Assembly (NCBI RefSeq): GCF_000243255.1
Contig: NZ_CM001436.1
Location: 2,748,743 to 2,812,742, forward strand
DNA: 64,000 nucleotides
Direction: 5' to 3'
Source of the DNA: Methanoplanus limicola DSM 2279
GTDB taxonomy: Archaea > Halobacteriota > Methanomicrobia > Methanomicrobiales > Methanomicrobiaceae
Below, piece by piece: positions 9,032 through 23,828 of this stretch (positions within the stretch are counted from its first letter, which is position 1; each line of letters opens with the position of its first letter). The notes below the pieces were generated by a model that was not told the DNA's origin, did no database searches, and saw nothing but the letters and a program-made list of their open reading frames with translations. The position numbers and the translations under genes were made by a program.

Positions 9032-10243
9032 TTAAAAGGGCCACAATACCCCGATAATTACATCAATAAAGCTCTTCTCCGAATATAAATCACTGCTGTC
9101 AGGCATATTTTTGGAGTATGATTCATCTGAACTGACCGGATAATCACCCATATCTTCTGATCCTGCCGGTGACATACCCCCGAACTCACGGTTCAGGACA
9201 AATTCTGCCGATGAGAACTGGGTATAGACCGGTGAATAGTAATATCCAACAGTTTTTTTGGTTGAGAACCAGACTCTCCCAAGCGAATCCGGGAAAACTT
9301 TCTTTATATTATTCTCGGCAATGCCGTCATACCTTGTGACATGGTCAACAACAACGCCGCCATATAGGAGAACCAGGCCATAATCGGTGGCGGCTGATGT
9401 CCTGCCGTCATGAAGAACTGCAATGTCATTTATCTTTCCAGCTCCGGAAGGCAGCATACTGAGGTTCAGGAAATTATGTACATTGCCATCCCCGTAAAAG
9501 ACAACTGCCTCAGAACTGTTGAAGAAGATCACACCGCCTAAAGGATTTGAGACCACATCTTCGCAGCCCACCGGAAGAAGGCCCGGGTCAATCTTTTCAA
9601 AACGGGGTGATGTTCCGGTTGAATTCTCAAGAAGAAAAGCGCCGCTATACTTTGAGACGATATACAGAGTATTGTCACGGCGATCAGATGCCATATCAAT
9701 GATGAAGTTCGCATCCGGACCTGACTCCGAGTATGGCTTAAACCAGAACCAGTCACCGTCATAATACCTGTAAAGGCCCGAAGTTCCGGTTGAGACAAAC
9801 ATAGCCTCTCCAACCGGTTCCAGCTCATTTATATCATTTCTGACAAAAAAACGATCATTCCCGGAGATTGTTACAGGCCGGCTGTACCCGTCATAGATCT
9901 GCAGAGCACTGGAGTACCCGAGCCAGAGATTTCCGGAAGAGTCAAATTCAACGTCAGTGATGTAATCGTCATAAGGCACTGAATCAGGATTATCACTACC
10001 ATCATTCCTTTCCGCATGGATAATATTCCACCCGCCTTTTTCATATACTGAAAGTCCGTTAGAGGTTGCAAAATAGAGTATCTGATTGCTGTCCTCAGCC
10101 ATATCCCTGATGTCCGCAGTGCTTACAGAACCGGAGCCGGGCCAGAACTGGACAACTGCACCGGACACAGGTGAAGCAGATAAAAATAAAGTTAAGATAA
10201 TTATGCAGTAAAATAAAGAACGGGAACTCAGAATTCTATGCAT
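9032..10243 (-). CDS. Secreted beta-propeller protein (two-component-propeller type)
   Basis: 403 residues with a clear Sec signal peptide (RSLFYCIIILTLFLSAS, cleavage near VSGA-VVQ at about 28). The body contains repeated propeller blades of the kind found in sensor-kinase input domains: ILYFATSNGLSVYEKGGW, LWLGYSSALQIYDG, MFVSTGTSGLYRYYDGDW, SAATDYGLVLLYGG and VWFSTKKTVGYYY. There is no kinase or anchor after it, so it is probably extracellular or surface-bound. Its start lies inside the last codons of cheD (16-base overlap), making it the last gene of the chemotaxis operon and suggesting a role in signal input. That role is inference. Confidence 0.7.
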   Translation of the reverse strand: MHRILSSRSLFYCIIILTLFLSASPVSGAVVQFWPGSGSVSTADIRDMAEDSNQILYFATSNGLSVYEKGGWNIIHAERNDGSDNPDSVPYDDYITDVEFDSSGNLWLGYSSALQIYDGYSRPVTISGNDRFFVRNDINELEPVGEAMFVSTGTSGLYRYYDGDWFWFKPYSESGPDANFIIDMASDRRDNTLYIVSKYSGAFLLENSTGTSPRFEKIDPGLLPVGCEDVVSNPLGGVIFFNSSEAVVFYGDGNVHNFLNLSMLPSGAGKINDIAVLHDGRTSAATDYGLVLLYGGVVVDHVTRYDGIAENNIKKVFPDSLGRVWFSTKKTVGYYYSPVYTQFSSAEFVLNREFGGMSPAGSEDMGDYPVSSDESYSKNMPDSSDLYSEKSFIDVIIGVLWPF

Positions 10244-15505: not shown

Positions 15506-16300
15506 TCAGGTTTTTACAGATTCGTTTACAAACCTGACTCCCTTGGTGGTCAGTTTTACTTCACGCCTTGTAAGTACAACATCAACAATCTGCTTTTCGA
15601 TCAGTTTGTCATAGACAGATTCAAGCTGTTTATGGCTGATATTAACCATCTTCTCTATTGCATGCGAGTCCATTCCGCTGTACACAAGCATGGCGACCTG
15701 GCCGGAGACCGAGTCAAGTTCACCCGCTGAGACATCGAGATCTTTGGTTGTATCCTTCAGATAATTGTACAATATTTCCAGGGTTGTGAGCGGGCATAGA
15801 ATGAAACTTGTTACAACCTCATCGTTCTCAATATGGTCAATATGTATGACATCACTGTCTTTTCCCTGAACTTCCCTCTTTGTAATCTCAATACCCGATA
15901 CTTCGTCAAGAGGAATTGAGATCTGCTTGTCGCGGCCAACAAACCAGATGGACGTCTTAAGTACTGCAATAGCACCTTTATCCCATTTGGCAGAACTTAC
16001 CAAAACTCCGCCCCTGATGGCCGGAGACATGAAATATGCAACAAGCCTGTACGCAGTACAGCCCATAATCACAGTCCGTTTAAGAATCTGAAGGACTTTT
16101 GGGATAGATGCAATTTTATAGGAATTTCCGGACTTTGTATTTAATACAAGTATATTCCTTTTTTCTTCAACATCATCTATCTCCTTGATTTTTATCTCTT
16201 TATTTATCGGTTCGGGAAAAGAGATAGCATTCTCTGAGATTCCGATCTTTATCGCATGCCATTTACTTTCATGCTCAATCTTTACAGGCACCTGTTTCAT
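15506..16300 (-). CDS. cheF: CheF, archaeal chemotaxis-to-archaellum adaptor
   Basis: 264 residues, no signal or membrane span. Length, location between arl and che genes, and the overall pattern (N-terminal beta-rich region with IKIGISENAISFPEP; middle YFMSPAIRGGVLVSSAKWDKG; helical winged-helix-like C terminus with AIEKMVNISHKQLESVYDKL) fit the archaea-specific CheF family (DUF439). CheF binds CheY-P and the ArlCDE switch proteins. Its start overlaps the stop of the upstream acidic gene by 4 bases, so it is translated as part of the arl operon rather than the che unit. Confidence 0.85.
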   Translation of the reverse strand: MKQVPVKIEHESKWHAIKIGISENAISFPEPINKEIKIKEIDDVEEKRNILVLNTKSGNSYKIASIPKVLQILKRTVIMGCTAYRLVAYFMSPAIRGGVLVSSAKWDKGAIAVLKTSIWFVGRDKQISIPLDEVSGIEITKREVQGKDSDVIHIDHIENDEVVTSFILCPLTTLEILYNYLKDTTKDLDVSAGELDSVSGQVAMLVYSGMDSHAIEKMVNISHKQLESVYDKLIEKQIVDVVLTRREVKLTTKGVRFVNESVKT

Positions 16301-17748
16301 TCTTCTTCTGACCCCTGGTTTATCACAGCAGACAACTCTTCACTATTCTCTTTATCCCCTGCTCTATTTGTCTTTTCGATCTCTGCCCCCAGAGAAAACA
16401 TCAGGGATTCAAGACCCTCGATAAGCTCTTCGCTCGAGACCCTGACATCTTTCATATCCCTTATAAGACTTGTCTCCTGGATATTAACTGCCTTTTGGGT
16501 ATCTGACTTGAGCATTGCAAAGAGATCGCCATCATCACTGCCCTTTTCAAAAGATGCAGTGAAAGACTCCTCCTCAGAATCCTGTGACATCAGTCCGAAA
16601 CTGCCCTGCTCCCACTCTTTTGGAGGTGCGGCGAATATGTCCTCCTCTTCTTCAGAGATATCAGGGGAGGCAGATTCACCATCTCCGGACTCATCACCGA
16701 GTTCTACGCTTACCTCTTCTTCCGGTTCAAATTCATCCTCTTCATCTATCTCAATCTCATCGAGATCAAGGTCGTCCAGGTCACCCAGTTCATCAAATTC
16801 ATCCCCGCCTTCAAACTCAAGACCGGAGATGTCCTCATCAATACCGGAGATCTCTTCAGAACCGGAAGGACTGCCGGAAAGTTCCTCTGAGGAATCAGTT
16901 TCATCGTTAATTTCAGATATGCCGGAGAATTCATCATCCTCAAGTTCAAGATCAATTCCTTCCTTTGCAAGAATCTCTGCAATGGTTGACTCAGGAATCT
17001 CCTCTTCTGCCTGGAGAATACTGCTGACAGAGGAATCAAAGTCCTCATCAGATTCCTCCTCAATTCCGAGATCAAGGCTGTCAAAATCTGAAAAGTCGTC
17101 CTCGTCCTCACCTGAGTCAGAAATATCATCCTGAGACTCATCTTCAGAACTCTCATCTTTTGTTCCGGGAGCAGAAGGCACCACATCATTTACAGTATGG
17201 TCAAGAAGTTCATCGATCTTCTTCTGCTTCTCCTCTCTGGATTTCTTTCCGGATTTTAAGGATGAAAATAATGTGCCGACCCCGGCGAAGAGACCCGCGG
17301 ATTCACTTTTGCCTTTATCCTCAGTAACTTCCTTCTTCTGGTCCTCACCGTCCTTTTTCCTGCCAAACGGAAGTTTTGCCATTAAACCGGCAAAAGGAAC
17401 TTTTGACTCCTTATCTCCTTTGCCGGAGAATAAACCGCCTTTCTTCTCTTTATCCTTTTTGGCATCTTCCTTTGGTTCTTTGGGAGGTTTTTCCTTACCG
17501 GATTTTTTATCTTCCTCCTTCTTTTTAAAAGTTACAGGCTGGCTCAGCCTGTGCCTGAATGCCTTAAGACCTGACTTAATCTCACCAAAAGTCACCATTC
17601 CGAGTGCAAAAAGCATCACAATGCCCATAACTACGGCTATAACGAGAACCAGGAGGGGACTTAAGTCAATAAAAGTTAATGCTGACCCTGCAAAGATGAT
17701 GGTCAGCATCATTATCATTCTTCTTCTGCTGTCACTCATACCTGCCAT
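16297..17748 (-). CDS. Unrecognised acidic membrane protein between arlJ and cheF
   Basis: 483 residues. The N terminus has two membrane spans separated by a very short turn (MIMMLTIIFAGSALTFIDL, then LLVLVIAVVMGIVMLFALGM, about 10-55). A basic, Lys-rich segment with SGKEKPPKEPKEDAKKDKEK follows (about 75-180), then about 230 residues dominated by Asp, Glu and Ser (for example DLDDLDLDEIEIDEEDEFE). A more ordered helical end contains IRDMKDVRVSSEELIEGLES. It abuts arlJ with no gap and overlaps cheF by 4 bases, so it is co-translated with both. I know no named arl/fla family with this build; a membrane-tethered organiser of the motor or switch is inference. Confidence 0.7.
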   Translation of the reverse strand: MAGMSDSRRRMIMMLTIIFAGSALTFIDLSPLLVLVIAVVMGIVMLFALGMVTFGEIKSGLKAFRHRLSQPVTFKKKEEDKKSGKEKPPKEPKEDAKKDKEKKGGLFSGKGDKESKVPFAGLMAKLPFGRKKDGEDQKKEVTEDKGKSESAGLFAGVGTLFSSLKSGKKSREEKQKKIDELLDHTVNDVVPSAPGTKDESSEDESQDDISDSGEDEDDFSDFDSLDLGIEEESDEDFDSSVSSILQAEEEIPESTIAEILAKEGIDLELEDDEFSGISEINDETDSSEELSGSPSGSEEISGIDEDISGLEFEGGDEFDELGDLDDLDLDEIEIDEEDEFEPEEEVSVELGDESGDGESASPDISEEEEDIFAAPPKEWEQGSFGLMSQDSEEESFTASFEKGSDDGDLFAMLKSDTQKAVNIQETSLIRDMKDVRVSSEELIEGLESLMFSLGAEIEKTNRAGDKENSEELSAVINQGSEEE

Positions 17749-19347
17749 TTATATTGCCTCAAATCCCGGTATTGCAAAAAGCACCTTAACTATAATCGGT
17801 GCTGCTATGTACATAATTCCTGTAAGAGTCAATAAAATACTACCGAAAAAATAATACATATAACGGTGCCCGCCTTTGACAATTCTTCCGGCAAGGATGT
17901 TTGCAACCGTTACAATCATGATGCTCGTAATGATGAAGGTCTGCATCTTATCCTCCGGAAAATTTGTGAATATGTTTATTGAACCCATCATGCTGCCGCC
18001 TACAGAGGATGAACTTGAACTGAGTGCCGAAGATGTCTCTTCAAAGGTTTTCAGAACCGAGCTTATGGCATGCGACATTGTAATCAGAATATTATAGAGG
18101 AAGGCGAAAATCCCGATCATCGCAACATGCATAGGAATTAAAAGGACAATAAATCCGGTTGCAAGCATCTCCCTCTTCTGTCTGAGAAGGGTCTGTTCAA
18201 GCATGGAACCGCTTACGATATATGCCACCTCGTTTGCACCGGCGCCAAGATTGATTGAATCGCGAAAAATTCCAAGATATTTGTAAATAAGGTTGCTTCC
18301 GGTCTCCATGATAAATTTCCGCCATACAAGAGTCTCCTCAAGACCGATATTCATCTTGGAATAGACGGCATCAATAAAGGGTCCGAGTACGTGGAGGGAT
18401 TTCCGGTCGACATCAGCAAGCGCAGGGCCTATTGTAAGCCCCATACCGCCCATAATTGATCCAAGACCCCGGATAAATGTCGTGAAATCCTCATCCCTTG
18501 AGATGATGTTTGAATCATCGATCCACCCGAGGTATCCGAGAGGTGCGAGCATTATTCCGACAAGCATGCAGATAAGGCCAAAATTTATCCCAAGTACATA
18601 GAGTATTATTCCTGCAATAAGGGCCATAGGGACTATTACCCGCTCAAGCCGGGCAATCATGATCTGCTCATAACTGCCCATACCCTCAAGACCGTGGCAT
18701 TTCTGGTCATCGGGGATGGCCTTGTACATTGTGATAATGCCAAAAGCGGAGACACCCAGTGTCAGAAAATAGGAGGAATTTAGAGTGGATTCAAGATTGT
18801 CAGGGGCATAAATCGCCACCGAGATCATGATGATTATACTTACAACCGTTGCTGAGAGCATGAGTGCAATATAGGCATCACCCCATTTCTTGAGCATCTC
18901 AATGCCCTGCTCAAAGTTATTCCGGTACACATTCCTTATTGTGGCGAGTTCTGACCGGAGAAACTCCTCGTCCGGAACTCCGGACTCGATGGAGTTTCCA
19001 AAACGGTTTAAGAGACTCTGAAGAATCTGATTACGGACCCTCTCTGCAACCAGCCTGAGGCTTTCGGCGTAGCTGTAATTCCATCTCTTTACAAAGCATT
19101 CAACCCTCTTTATCGCCCTTGTGGAGATGTACTCCTTTCTCTCGGCTGTATATGCAAATATTTCAGGCCTTGAGACATTTGCATGGGTGATTGAGGCCAT
19201 GTATGTGACCATAAAAAGAAGGTCGTTACTCATCCTTTTGTTATCTGAAATATCAGAGAGCTTCTTTTTAATCTCCTTTACCGTATCCTCAAAAGGTAAC
19301 TGGCCGTTGTTCTTCTCCTTAAGGTCCGCAATGAGATCTTCAAACAT
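17749..19347 (-). CDS. arlJ: ArlJ (FlaJ) archaellum membrane platform
   Basis: 532 residues, a T2SS-F/FlaJ-type polytopic protein. Cytoplasmic helical segments alternate with membrane spans (YIALMLSATVVSIIIMISVA, IVPMALIAGIILYVLGINFG, FIVLLIPMHVAMIGIFAFLY, and others near the C terminus). It is the membrane core on which ArlI and ArlH assemble to build the filament. It starts 8 bases after the arlI stop. Confidence 0.95.
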   Translation of the reverse strand: MFEDLIADLKEKNNGQLPFEDTVKEIKKKLSDISDNKRMSNDLLFMVTYMASITHANVSRPEIFAYTAERKEYISTRAIKRVECFVKRWNYSYAESLRLVAERVRNQILQSLLNRFGNSIESGVPDEEFLRSELATIRNVYRNNFEQGIEMLKKWGDAYIALMLSATVVSIIIMISVAIYAPDNLESTLNSSYFLTLGVSAFGIITMYKAIPDDQKCHGLEGMGSYEQIMIARLERVIVPMALIAGIILYVLGINFGLICMLVGIMLAPLGYLGWIDDSNIISRDEDFTTFIRGLGSIMGGMGLTIGPALADVDRKSLHVLGPFIDAVYSKMNIGLEETLVWRKFIMETGSNLIYKYLGIFRDSINLGAGANEVAYIVSGSMLEQTLLRQKREMLATGFIVLLIPMHVAMIGIFAFLYNILITMSHAISSVLKTFEETSSALSSSSSSVGGSMMGSINIFTNFPEDKMQTFIITSIMIVTVANILAGRIVKGGHRYMYYFFGSILLTLTGIMYIAAPIIVKVLFAIPGFEAI

Positions 19348-22026: not shown

Positions 22027-22491
22027 CTATATATATGCTGATACTGAAATTCCGTTCGGAGTTGCCATTTTTGCCCATACCGGTTCGTCACCGGTGTATG
22101 TTATATTGACCTGCATCACTTCATCAGGGTCGAGAAGGCCGGGGTTGATTATATCCGGAATTATGGATACAATTGCCCAGCTGCCCTCGCCCATTGGATA
22201 GTATATAGGAGGTTCTGTACTTGAATTGACTGTGTACACGTCAATGTACTCAAAGTCCTCAATTATTGTGCTGCCCGTATTTTCAATATCAAGGGTAAGG
22301 TTACCTGAGGATATACTGGCTGTATTTATTGAGAGTGATGTCCTCATTCTCAGCTCCTGCTGATTCACCTGGTCTGTCTGGGCATATGAGACAACCTGGG
22401 CTGTGGTAAGCACTACCCCTACCAGAAAATATGCGGTAATTATCAGCATTATGAGAGCAAATGCAGTTGCAATAAGTGAAGCGCTTGCCAT
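22027..22491 (-). CDS. arlF: ArlF (FlaF) archaellum stator component
   Basis: 154 residues: one N-terminal membrane span (LIATAFALIMLIITAYFLVG) and an extracellular beta-sandwich that resembles archaellin, with LTLDIENTGSTIIEDFEYI. ArlF binds the S-layer and, with ArlG, anchors the motor. I call this one ArlF and the upstream gene ArlG from order and from the ENTGST versus IKNIGS wording; the two families are similar, so the labels could be swapped. Confidence 0.75.
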   Translation of the reverse strand: MASASLIATAFALIMLIITAYFLVGVVLTTAQVVSYAQTDQVNQQELRMRTSLSINTASISSGNLTLDIENTGSTIIEDFEYIDVYTVNSSTEPPIYYPMGEGSWAIVSIIPDIINPGLLDPDEVMQVNITYTGDEPVWAKMATPNGISVSAYI

Positions 22492-22497
22492 TGTTAT

Positions 22498-22998
22498 CTA
22501 ACCACTGGTGGTATATGTCCGTGATACTGTTACGCCGTTTGGGAGGGCCAGCTGAAAGTAGAGATAATTGCCTTCGCCGGCAGGAATCGATGCTGAGTTA
22601 ATCTCTATCTCTAAGGTTTCCCTCTGGTCCCAGTAGTTATTCTCTGTACTTTCTATTACAGAATAACTCCATTCACCGTCGGCAGGTGTCCCGTCAGGGT
22701 CAAATATGAGGATATCATAGTCACCCTCTTCTCCGAAAAATACGTCTGACATATCAAGATTTGATTTTGGAACTCTTGCAGAACCGATATTTTTTATCCA
22801 GATTTTAGCATCCGGACTTACGGCAAATGTGTTGATGATCTTTATTTCTGTACGCATCCGTTCGTCTGCCGACTGTGAAGAGTCACTGAATGTTGATGTT
22901 GCCTGATAGATTACGGGAAAGAATGCATTGACAAGCACTGCCGCAGCTACTATTGCTGTTATCAGAAATATGGCTGTGGCAAAGGTTTCACTCGACAT
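22498..22998 (-). CDS. arlG: ArlG (FlaG) archaellum stator component
   Basis: 166 residues: N-terminal span (TAIFLITAIVAAAVLVNAFF) followed by a beta-sandwich with the FlaG-like block IWIKNIGSARVPKSNLDMSD. ArlG filaments capped by ArlF link the motor to the S-layer. It lies between arlD/E and arlF with 6- and 20-base gaps. Confidence 0.75.
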   Translation of the reverse strand: MSSETFATAIFLITAIVAAAVLVNAFFPVIYQATSTFSDSSQSADERMRTEIKIINTFAVSPDAKIWIKNIGSARVPKSNLDMSDVFFGEEGDYDILIFDPDGTPADGEWSYSVIESTENNYWDQRETLEIEINSASIPAGEGNYLYFQLALPNGVTVSRTYTTSG

Positions 22999-23018: not shown

Positions 23019-23828
23019 TTAAATCTCTTCAAGCATATCGATCCAGTCCTCTTCGATTGACTCTCCCTTTGAACTCCCTTTGGATTTTACGAGGTCTTCT
23101 ATACTCTTGTTGTCCATCATGACATCTATCATCTCTCTGTCAAGGGATGAGTCATCAGGGTAGAGAATTCTGTTTAATACATATAATTCGGCTACGAATT
23201 CTTCTGAACCGATCTCATGATATTCCCCTATTGACTGCGGCATCAGGCGGGCGATGTCTTTTATCTGCGTGCAGTACTCGTCCGAGACATAGCCCATTGA
23301 ACGGTATGACTCCATCATTATTTCCATTCGGTCATGGCCGTACTTTTTGACCATGCGGGCGGTCCACTCAAATATCCTGTGAAGTTTCTGAAGTTTAGGC
23401 TTTTCCTTTGCCTGTTCTGAAACTTCAGGTGCATTTTTATTTATGTCATCTATCTGCCTGTGCAGTGCTGCAAGGAGATCTTCATCTTTTAATGATGATG
23501 AGAGGGAATCTGTGGTGTTCTTATCCGGAAGAGCCGGGGTGATGTCCTCTTCACCGGGGACTGCCGGAAGGGTCTCTTCCGGGGTTTCCTCTTCTGCTGC
23601 CGGAAGTTCATTCTGCTTCTTCGGGCTTTCGAGTGCGGTTTCGGAGTAGTTGCTCAGAATGAAGGGGTTGTCAAGCTCGTTCATTCTCTCTCTTAAATCT
23701 ATTAATAGCTTCTTTACAGATTTTTTAAGGAGGTCAACCTCATCCTGAAGGTTTTGTAGTTTAACATCAGGATCATCCGCCGAGGCTGTGCTTAGAATGT
23801 GATCTACCTGCGACTGGTTAACTGCCAT
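23019..23828 (-). CDS. arlE: ArlD/E (FlaD/E-type) archaellum switch protein
   Basis: 269 residues. An N-terminal coiled coil (LQNLQDEVDLLKKSVKKLL, about 23-45), a Pro/Glu-rich linker, and a C-terminal FlaD/E domain (LHRIFEWTARMVKKYGHDRM through AELYVLNRILYPD). ArlCDE proteins form the cytosolic switch that receives CheF/CheY-P signals. It is the first gene of the arl operon; no separate arlC is visible, so this may be a fused C/D/E protein as in related methanogens. Confidence 0.88.
   Translation of the reverse strand: MAVNQSQVDHILSTASADDPDVKLQNLQDEVDLLKKSVKKLLIDLRERMNELDNPFILSNYSETALESPKKQNELPAAEEETPEETLPAVPGEEDITPALPDKNTTDSLSSSLKDEDLLAALHRQIDDINKNAPEVSEQAKEKPKLQKLHRIFEWTARMVKKYGHDRMEIMMESYRSMGYVSDEYCTQIKDIARLMPQSIGEYHEIGSEEFVAELYVLNRILYPDDSSLDREMIDVMMDNKSIEDLVKSKGSSKGESIEEDWIDMLEEI

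Follow-up and report, generated by a model that had tools for sequence, protein, structure and literature searches.

An apparently unnamed acidic membrane protein encoded behind arlJ in Methanoplanus limicola and other Halobacteriota, and its possible role as a tether of the archaellum ring

We report on a gene in the archaellum (arl) operon of Methanoplanus limicola DSM 2279, a weakly motile methanogen with flagella in polar tufts according to PMC4149034. The analysed stretch of 64,000 nucleotides (NZ_CM001436.1, positions 2,748,743 to 2,812,742, forward strand; hereafter the window, to which all coordinates refer) carries this gene, here called X, on the minus strand at 16297..17748 (ATG at 17748, stop at 16297-16299, stop codon included), and it encodes a protein of 483 residues. 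Directly upstream lies arlJ for the platform protein (17749..19347, minus; NCBIfam ArlJ, E 3.5e-211), the final base of which is the base immediately before the start of X, and directly downstream is cheF (15506..16300, minus; Pfam CheF-arch, PF04283, E 4e-15), which overlaps X by 4 bp. The segment 19356..22998 (minus) holds two archaellin-like stator genes, arlH and arlI (Pfam Arch_flagellin, KaiC-type ATPase and T2SSE), and is preceded by a complete open reading frame (ORF) for an ArlD-type ring protein without a transmembrane (TM) segment (23019..23828, minus; Pfam Arch_fla_DE, 21.6 bits with a cut-off of 21), which we propose as the partner of X. Judging from gene order, the stator genes (22498-22998 and 22027-22491, minus; Arch_flagellin E 4e-12 and, below cut-off, E 3.6e-4) would be arlG followed by arlF. 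In the direction of transcription on the minus strand the order is ring gene, two stator genes, arlH, arlI, arlJ, X, cheF, cheY, cheB, cheA, cheC and cheD, where the names of the che genes except cheF were assigned from our own reading of the sequence. With a single ArlD-like gene and ArlC not present as a gene of its own, the set agrees with the fla2/arl2 type of cluster that PMC1914349 and PMC12488501 describe for Methanomicrobia. A plus-strand ORF of 292 aa (16256-17134) overlaps X and is presumed to be a putative shadow of low-complexity DNA.

By composition X has a pI of 4.1, and a Lys-rich neck links its membrane hairpin to an acidic tail. The AlphaFold model has helices at residues 6-26 and 31-48 (the hairpin), 54-69, 168-187, 253-262, 407-419, 439-452 and 469-476, with the remainder unstructured (mean pLDDT 53.5, pTM 0.24), and our hydropathy scan, on which all TM calls outside that model are based (mean Kyte-Doolittle >1.7 over 19 residues), places TM segments at about 11 and 30. 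The parts of the protein, all encoded on the minus strand, are as follows. The hairpin (residues 6-48, 17605..17733; the first two AlphaFold helices) has an invariant RR before it and probably has both ends in the cytoplasm. It is followed by a helix (residues 54-69, 17542..17589; AlphaFold), the neck with 30 Lys in 115 residues (residues 71-185, 17194..17538; composition) and a short helix with a 'KIDxLLDxT' segment (residues 168-187, 17188..17247; AlphaFold and alignment) that aligns with 'KEIDEKLEEVV' of relatives outside the order. The acidic, mostly unstructured linker (residues 186-405, 16534..17193; AlphaFold and composition) has 88 Asp/Glu and 35 Ser in 220 residues and a net charge of -84, and contains a short helix within an 'EEIPxSxIAxILAKEGI' segment (residues 253-262, 16963..16992; AlphaFold). 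Finally, a conserved C-terminal two-helix motif, 'DDLLxxLK...SLLRDLKD...EELxxELxxVL', spans residues 406-455 (16384..16533; alignments and AlphaFold). The sequence-only reading of the window had described the hairpin, neck and acidic tail as well as the abutment to arlJ and the four-base overlap with cheF, and all of this is confirmed, the strand being minus.

Conservation in X is limited to the N-terminal membrane anchor and short motifs, a pattern as expected for a tether. Across 28 sequences of the order R9, R10 and G21 are invariant and G42 nearly so, while the invariant positions of the C-terminal block are L413, S427, R430, L442 and L446; two hydropathy segments are present in 27 of the 28. 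Here and below, the order is that of the window genome, Methanomicrobiales, with up to 199 genomes. A single-sequence search found X in 39/60 genomes, its own included. All 30 fetched loci carry arlJ, and X was read behind it in 29, the remaining one (L021) having an in-frame stop; alignment A1 was built from 28 of the 30, with L002 (IS insertion) and L021 (stop in frame) omitted.

With a profile of the C-terminal ~50 residues we obtained a match in 141/199 genomes of the order (110/132 among those of good quality), and ArlJ scored above its curated cut-off in 137/199. X and ArlJ are paired in 138 of the 141, on the same strand with X downstream and a gap <3 kb; in the three exceptions, the X and ArlJ pieces fall on separate contigs (G124 and G035) or ArlJ is matched only very weakly (G178, E 7.6e-4). 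Among genomes with an ArlJ match of at least 379 bits 139/142 have X, and in the other three ArlJ is <850 bases from the contig start on the side where X would lie; the g21 genomes, with weak ArlJ matches or none, are absent from the 141 positives. Each positive genome gave one significant C-terminal match, that is, no paralogues were found in the 141 at the sensitivity of this profile. Looking for homologues that lie regularly outside arl/che loci we thus found them downstream of ArlJ in 138/141 cases, and the earlier suggestion of a dedicated archaellum-motor component is, at the level of sequence, well supported.

X is a real coding gene and a conserved family under selection, and not a chance ORF, since residues 1-352 have a dN/dS of 0.19 and the C-terminal part one of 0.07 relative to the sister species, and since 50/50 aligned residues are identical within residues 405-455 at dS 0.92. 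X of the window matches nothing in Pfam at E 1, and its two NCBIfam matches are far below cut-off; LapA_dom gave the best Pfam match among the 28 members from the order (7 members, best E 1.1e-5), and the best NCBIfam match among the 16 members of alignment A5 (see below) had E 9e-4. Judged from these sequence comparisons, no Pfam or NCBIfam match convincingly describes the family. No such component is named in the portions consulted of the archaellum literature (PMC4858521, PMC8978795, PMC1914349, PMC2666748, PMC12024892, PMC4149034 and PMC12488501), which did not include the arCOG lists in the supplement of PMC4858521, where X may appear as a nameless arCOG. X is apparently an unnamed part of a known motor.

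Across the phylum, the C-terminal profile of the order matched 66/294 genomes, other families included, and once widened with non-order relatives it matched 81/294, of which 33 are outside the order; two of the 81 carry two motif matches. We take the non-order families to be Archaeoglobaceae (f9), Methanosarcinaceae (f8) and Methanocellaceae (f14), joined by family f12, and the holders of X presumably include Archaeoglobus fulgidus, Methanocella arvoryzae and Methanococcoides burtonii. Loci were fetched for 29 of the 33 genomes (G349, G365, G412 and G435 were left out), and X is directly behind arlJ in 26 of them; L088 and L109 have one gene in between, and in L110 (genome G326) X lies between arlH and arlI. 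Altogether, X is linked to arl core genes across lineages, as expected of a component of the arl system.

The non-order relatives are shorter, about 200-395 aa. In alignment A5 (X from 15 of the 29 non-order loci plus P0001) all 15 have a single N-terminal TM segment, after which most have an 'IDEKLEEV'-like segment, then an acidic stretch and the common C-terminus. The anchor hence takes the form of a hairpin in Methanomicrobiales and of one TM helix in Archaeoglobaceae-, Methanocella- and several Methanosarcinaceae-type genomes, shifting from two TM segments to one between lineages with the tail and end motif retained. Profile-profile comparison (hhalign) of the order with the other families, with P0001 left out, gave E 2.8e-11 for the C-terminus and E 5.3e-7 for the full length; the reversed control gave E 0.029. 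A further alignment, A4, combined 13 of 28 order rows with 12 of 16 other rows, with L087, L089, L098 and the second L090 fragment omitted and L085 missed by the motif pattern. That fragment, a second X C-terminal motif in a 90-aa ORF (L090:4186-4458, minus) about 12 kb from the main arl copy, is perhaps duplicated. In Thermoproteota the X motif matched 0/151 genomes, 46 of which have ArlH at E 1e-12, in a search run without a positive control. Thermoproteota matches to the full-length A5 profile (best E about 3e-4 to 6e-4) fell in TM and charged or coiled stretches and were judged compositional.

In Halobacteriota the ring protein is without a TM segment in 29/29 loci parsed, all complete ORFs (16 were complete at first, and the 13 cut by the fetched edge were complete and still TM-free after fetching further upstream). 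The ring proteins of the window (23019-23828, minus) and of L165-L177 share, by eye, an N-terminal stretch 'DxxxxLExEVxxLKGSVKKLLxDxRExxNxLENPF'. Sulfolobales ArlX has its own TM and was found beside an ArlH matching PDB 4yds at 100%, and in loci that we label Nitrososphaeria-like the ring protein, of roughly 405-444 aa, likewise bears its own TM. Among Thermoproteota, a separate gene for a small TM protein built on a similar plan is directly behind arlJ in 6/11 soluble-ring loci versus 0/8 TM-ring loci (Fisher p 0.018), a pattern that is indicative only, being post hoc, noticed in the same loci and uncorrected for kinship among related genomes. The comparison covers 19 usable of 21 loci (not counted are L128, with a ring ORF truncated at the fetched edge, and L132, for which parsing gave no ring gene), and the eight TM-ring loci include L115 and L116. 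Small single-TM proteins directly behind arlJ occur in L118, L123, L124, L127, L129, L132 and L133, L132 being the seventh case. They have no detectable homology to X in profile-profile comparison, so that the arrangement would be convergent.

Exceptionally long arlI ORFs (845-1270 aa) were seen at L112:6700-9738, L117:5399-7936, L132:5116-8076 and L140:5598-9410, the insertion in L112 resembling an intein by eye, and in L131:1576-4818 (Thermoproteota) both arlI and arlJ are broken into two ORFs each.

We tentatively propose, at somewhat less than an even chance, that X, anchored in the membrane, flexibly tethers the soluble ArlD-type ring in the arl2-type motor of Halobacteriota other than haloarchaea. 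The short N-terminal anchor would keep X near ArlJ, and the long acidic unstructured tail would extend as a flexible spacer into what is probably the cytoplasm, where short helical motifs, chiefly the C-terminal two-helix motif, would clip onto a cytoplasmic part of the motor, the likeliest candidate being the soluble ArlD-type ring (or, within it, the ArlH/ArlI complex). X may in this way provide in trans the membrane anchor that crenarchaeal ArlX bears in cis, and the tethered ring would be held still as ArlI and ArlJ rotate. An anchor, a spacer and docking helices at its far end together suggest the design of a tether, and a tethering role is supported by the strict linkage to arlJ, the single copy, the conservation pattern, the change of anchor with the tail kept and the TM-free rings; topology, binding partner and role are, however, all predicted. 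A 2025 review (PMC12024892) describes ArlCDE as being without a membrane tether and a 2022 review (PMC8978795) notes a proposal that the polar cap serves as the anchor instead, and the reviews leave unsettled how the euryarchaeal cytoplasmic ring is held and what the motor pushes against. If the proposal is true, X would be the membrane tether so far missing from the picture of the euryarchaeal archaellum ring, and a conserved membrane protein beside the platform gene makes ring anchoring a one-gene test.

Several observations weigh against a tether. The partner assigned to X is itself putative. In G001, which is the one further genome of the genus in this set, X is interrupted (L152:8447-11640) by a DDE transposase gene (388 aa, opposite strand, an insertion of ~1.7 kb) between the acidic linker and the conserved C-terminus, with the remaining arl and che genes at full length. 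Flagella are reported for M. endosymbiosus in PMC4149034; if G001 is that species, as we suppose, X may not be strictly needed, or its loss may be recent. In Methanosarcina-like and f10 genomes arlJ is followed by a gene for a protein with many acidic residues in which no TM is predicted (11/11); only the protein of L143 matches the motif (E 6.2e-6), the rest having E of at least 0.015 or not being listed, and only in L143 is the N-terminus significantly amphipathic relative to shuffles. From their sequence and place these TM-less proteins are possible relatives of X. An amphipathic N-terminus as a substitute anchor among them was considered and set aside, L143 alone clearly beating shuffles. 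In 12 fetched loci of haloarchaea (a label that we assigned to the order of G336) the best X motif score was E 0.27, with arlI recognised in 10 and arlJ in 7, and ArlCDE of haloarchaea function without X. Five of the 11 soluble-ring Thermoproteota loci (L112, L117, L126, L130 and L131) have no TM gene behind arlJ. Lastly, X compared with three Sulfolobales ArlX by hhalign gave E 0.03-0.06 and 1-2% probability, i.e., no detectable homology.

That X is instead a partner or assembly factor of ArlJ, stabilising the platform or gating the switch of ArlH/ArlI from assembly to rotation with no contact to the ring, is in our view unlikely. The arlJ-X order is the tightest linkage observed, and Sulfolobus ArlJ is unstable without ArlX according to PMC8978795; yet X of G326, between arlH and arlI, is away from arlJ, and the most conserved part of X in the window is ~360 residues from the hairpin, which is better suited to a remote partner. 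We consider it rather less probable still that X, by analogy with bacterial HubP/FimV, is a polar hub gathering archaella and polar cap at one pole. The anatomy is similar to that of HubP/FimV, the flagella of M. limicola are in polar tufts (PMC4149034, as above), and the polar cap is given only as 'most likely proteinaceous' in PMC8978795. The same review has the polar cap as a hallmark of Euryarchaeota, however, yet X was not found in the haloarchaeal loci examined, and FimV/HubP models are not among the family matches shown.

The sequence-only reading had also suggested a switch-docking component, and X might accordingly be a chemotaxis adaptor tether that holds CheF (and CheY-P) at the motor. 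In the order cheF is within the short flanks of 28/30 loci, and in 27/29 loci in which X could be read its start is <=50 bp away, one miss being L002, with cheF just behind the IS insertion. Other loci depart from this: in f9 loci where cheF was seen it is the next gene after X in 0/8, and in L149, which like the window comes from Methanomicrobiales, X is followed by a gene on the opposite strand. CheF was found in 27/44 genomes searched, and its absence alone is weak evidence because the Pfam model missed G227, G235 and G284 although their loci hold che genes. The argument therefore rests on G326, a single-contig genome that is 99% complete, where X is part of an arl operon and neither CheF nor any CheW-domain match was found. 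X is thus not confined to genomes with chemotaxis genes and resembles a gene of the motor more than one of chemotaxis; docking onto CheF is weakened, and we regard a chemotaxis tether as decidedly improbable. Two further genes were noted. The last gene of the che cluster in the window (9032-10243, minus, 403 aa) overlaps cheD and has a two-component-regulator propeller match (Reg_prop). In f9 loci X is followed by a gene for ~200-225 aa (L083:5539-6210, with equivalents in L082, L086, L088, L089, L094 and L096-L099). The product of the L083 gene carries a HisKA-type phosphoacceptor segment (Pfam E 3.7e-8) at the C-terminal end, which leaves no room for a kinase ATPase domain.

A minor, dispensable lineage accessory retained by operon context would agree with the IS disruption in G001, the fast-evolving linker and the TM-less candidate relatives in some lineages, but it is at odds with X in 139/142 strong-ArlJ genomes (ArlJ being near a contig start in the other three), the 50/50 identity of C-terminal residues at dS 0.92 and retention in 33 genomes outside the order, and we give it little credence.

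Among known systems, two matches were rejected: IcmE/DotG, from a PDB search with the C-terminal profile (E 7.6e-5, 14 positions aligned, no stretch passing alone), was judged to be chance, and the NCBIfam PomA match to X (E 0.006, residues 12-74) is far below cut-off. The weak LapA_dom (PF06305) matches presumably arise through the two-helix hairpin. HubP/FimV resemble X in combining a membrane anchor, a long acidic cytoplasmic part and a short conserved C-terminus; X differs in being confined to arl loci and in having no counterpart of their periplasmic LysM part, and no FimV/HubP model was among the Pfam/NCBIfam matches shown for the family in a general library scan that made no direct comparison. 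CheF is the neighbour of X in most loci of the order; a TM is not expected in CheF, and X is kept in a genome without a CheF or CheW match. ArlC/D/E (Arch_fla_DE) share the operon with X and include its proposed partner, but they are encoded upstream of arlG/F, have no TM and are not related to X in sequence (about 0.1% probability). Arch_fla_DE/FlaC models gave no match to X of the window and were not among the 25/30 families shown for 28 members, while the ring gene at 23019-23828 does match Arch_fla_DE. For ArlX, the ArlD-type ring proteins and the small Thermoproteota TM proteins alike, homology to X was rejected since profile-profile comparison picks up only the hydrophobic stretch, and the likeness is therefore one of architecture and place.

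ArlX (FlaX) is the ring-forming protein of Sulfolobales and binds ArlH/ArlI. Its helical domain weakly resembles ArlD-type proteins (profile E 0.008, 5% probability), whereas X is without such a domain, acidic and mostly unstructured; the ArlX gene is upstream of arlG/F, between archaellin and arlG/F, while X is behind arlJ (or, in G326, between arlH and arlI); and ArlX has a single N-terminal TM helix, as do the aligned X relatives outside the order (15/15), in contrast to the hairpin in the window. It is conceivable, if somewhat doubtful, that the function of ArlX is split in Halobacteriota between a soluble ArlD-type ring and a separate flexible tether behind arlJ, with independent solutions elsewhere in the form of a TM-fused ring (Sulfolobales and Nitrososphaeria-like lineages) or of unrelated small TM proteins behind arlJ (other Thermoproteota). 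Both ArlX and X are products of the arl operon with an N-terminal TM anchor and a tail that is cytoplasmic in ArlX and probably so in X.

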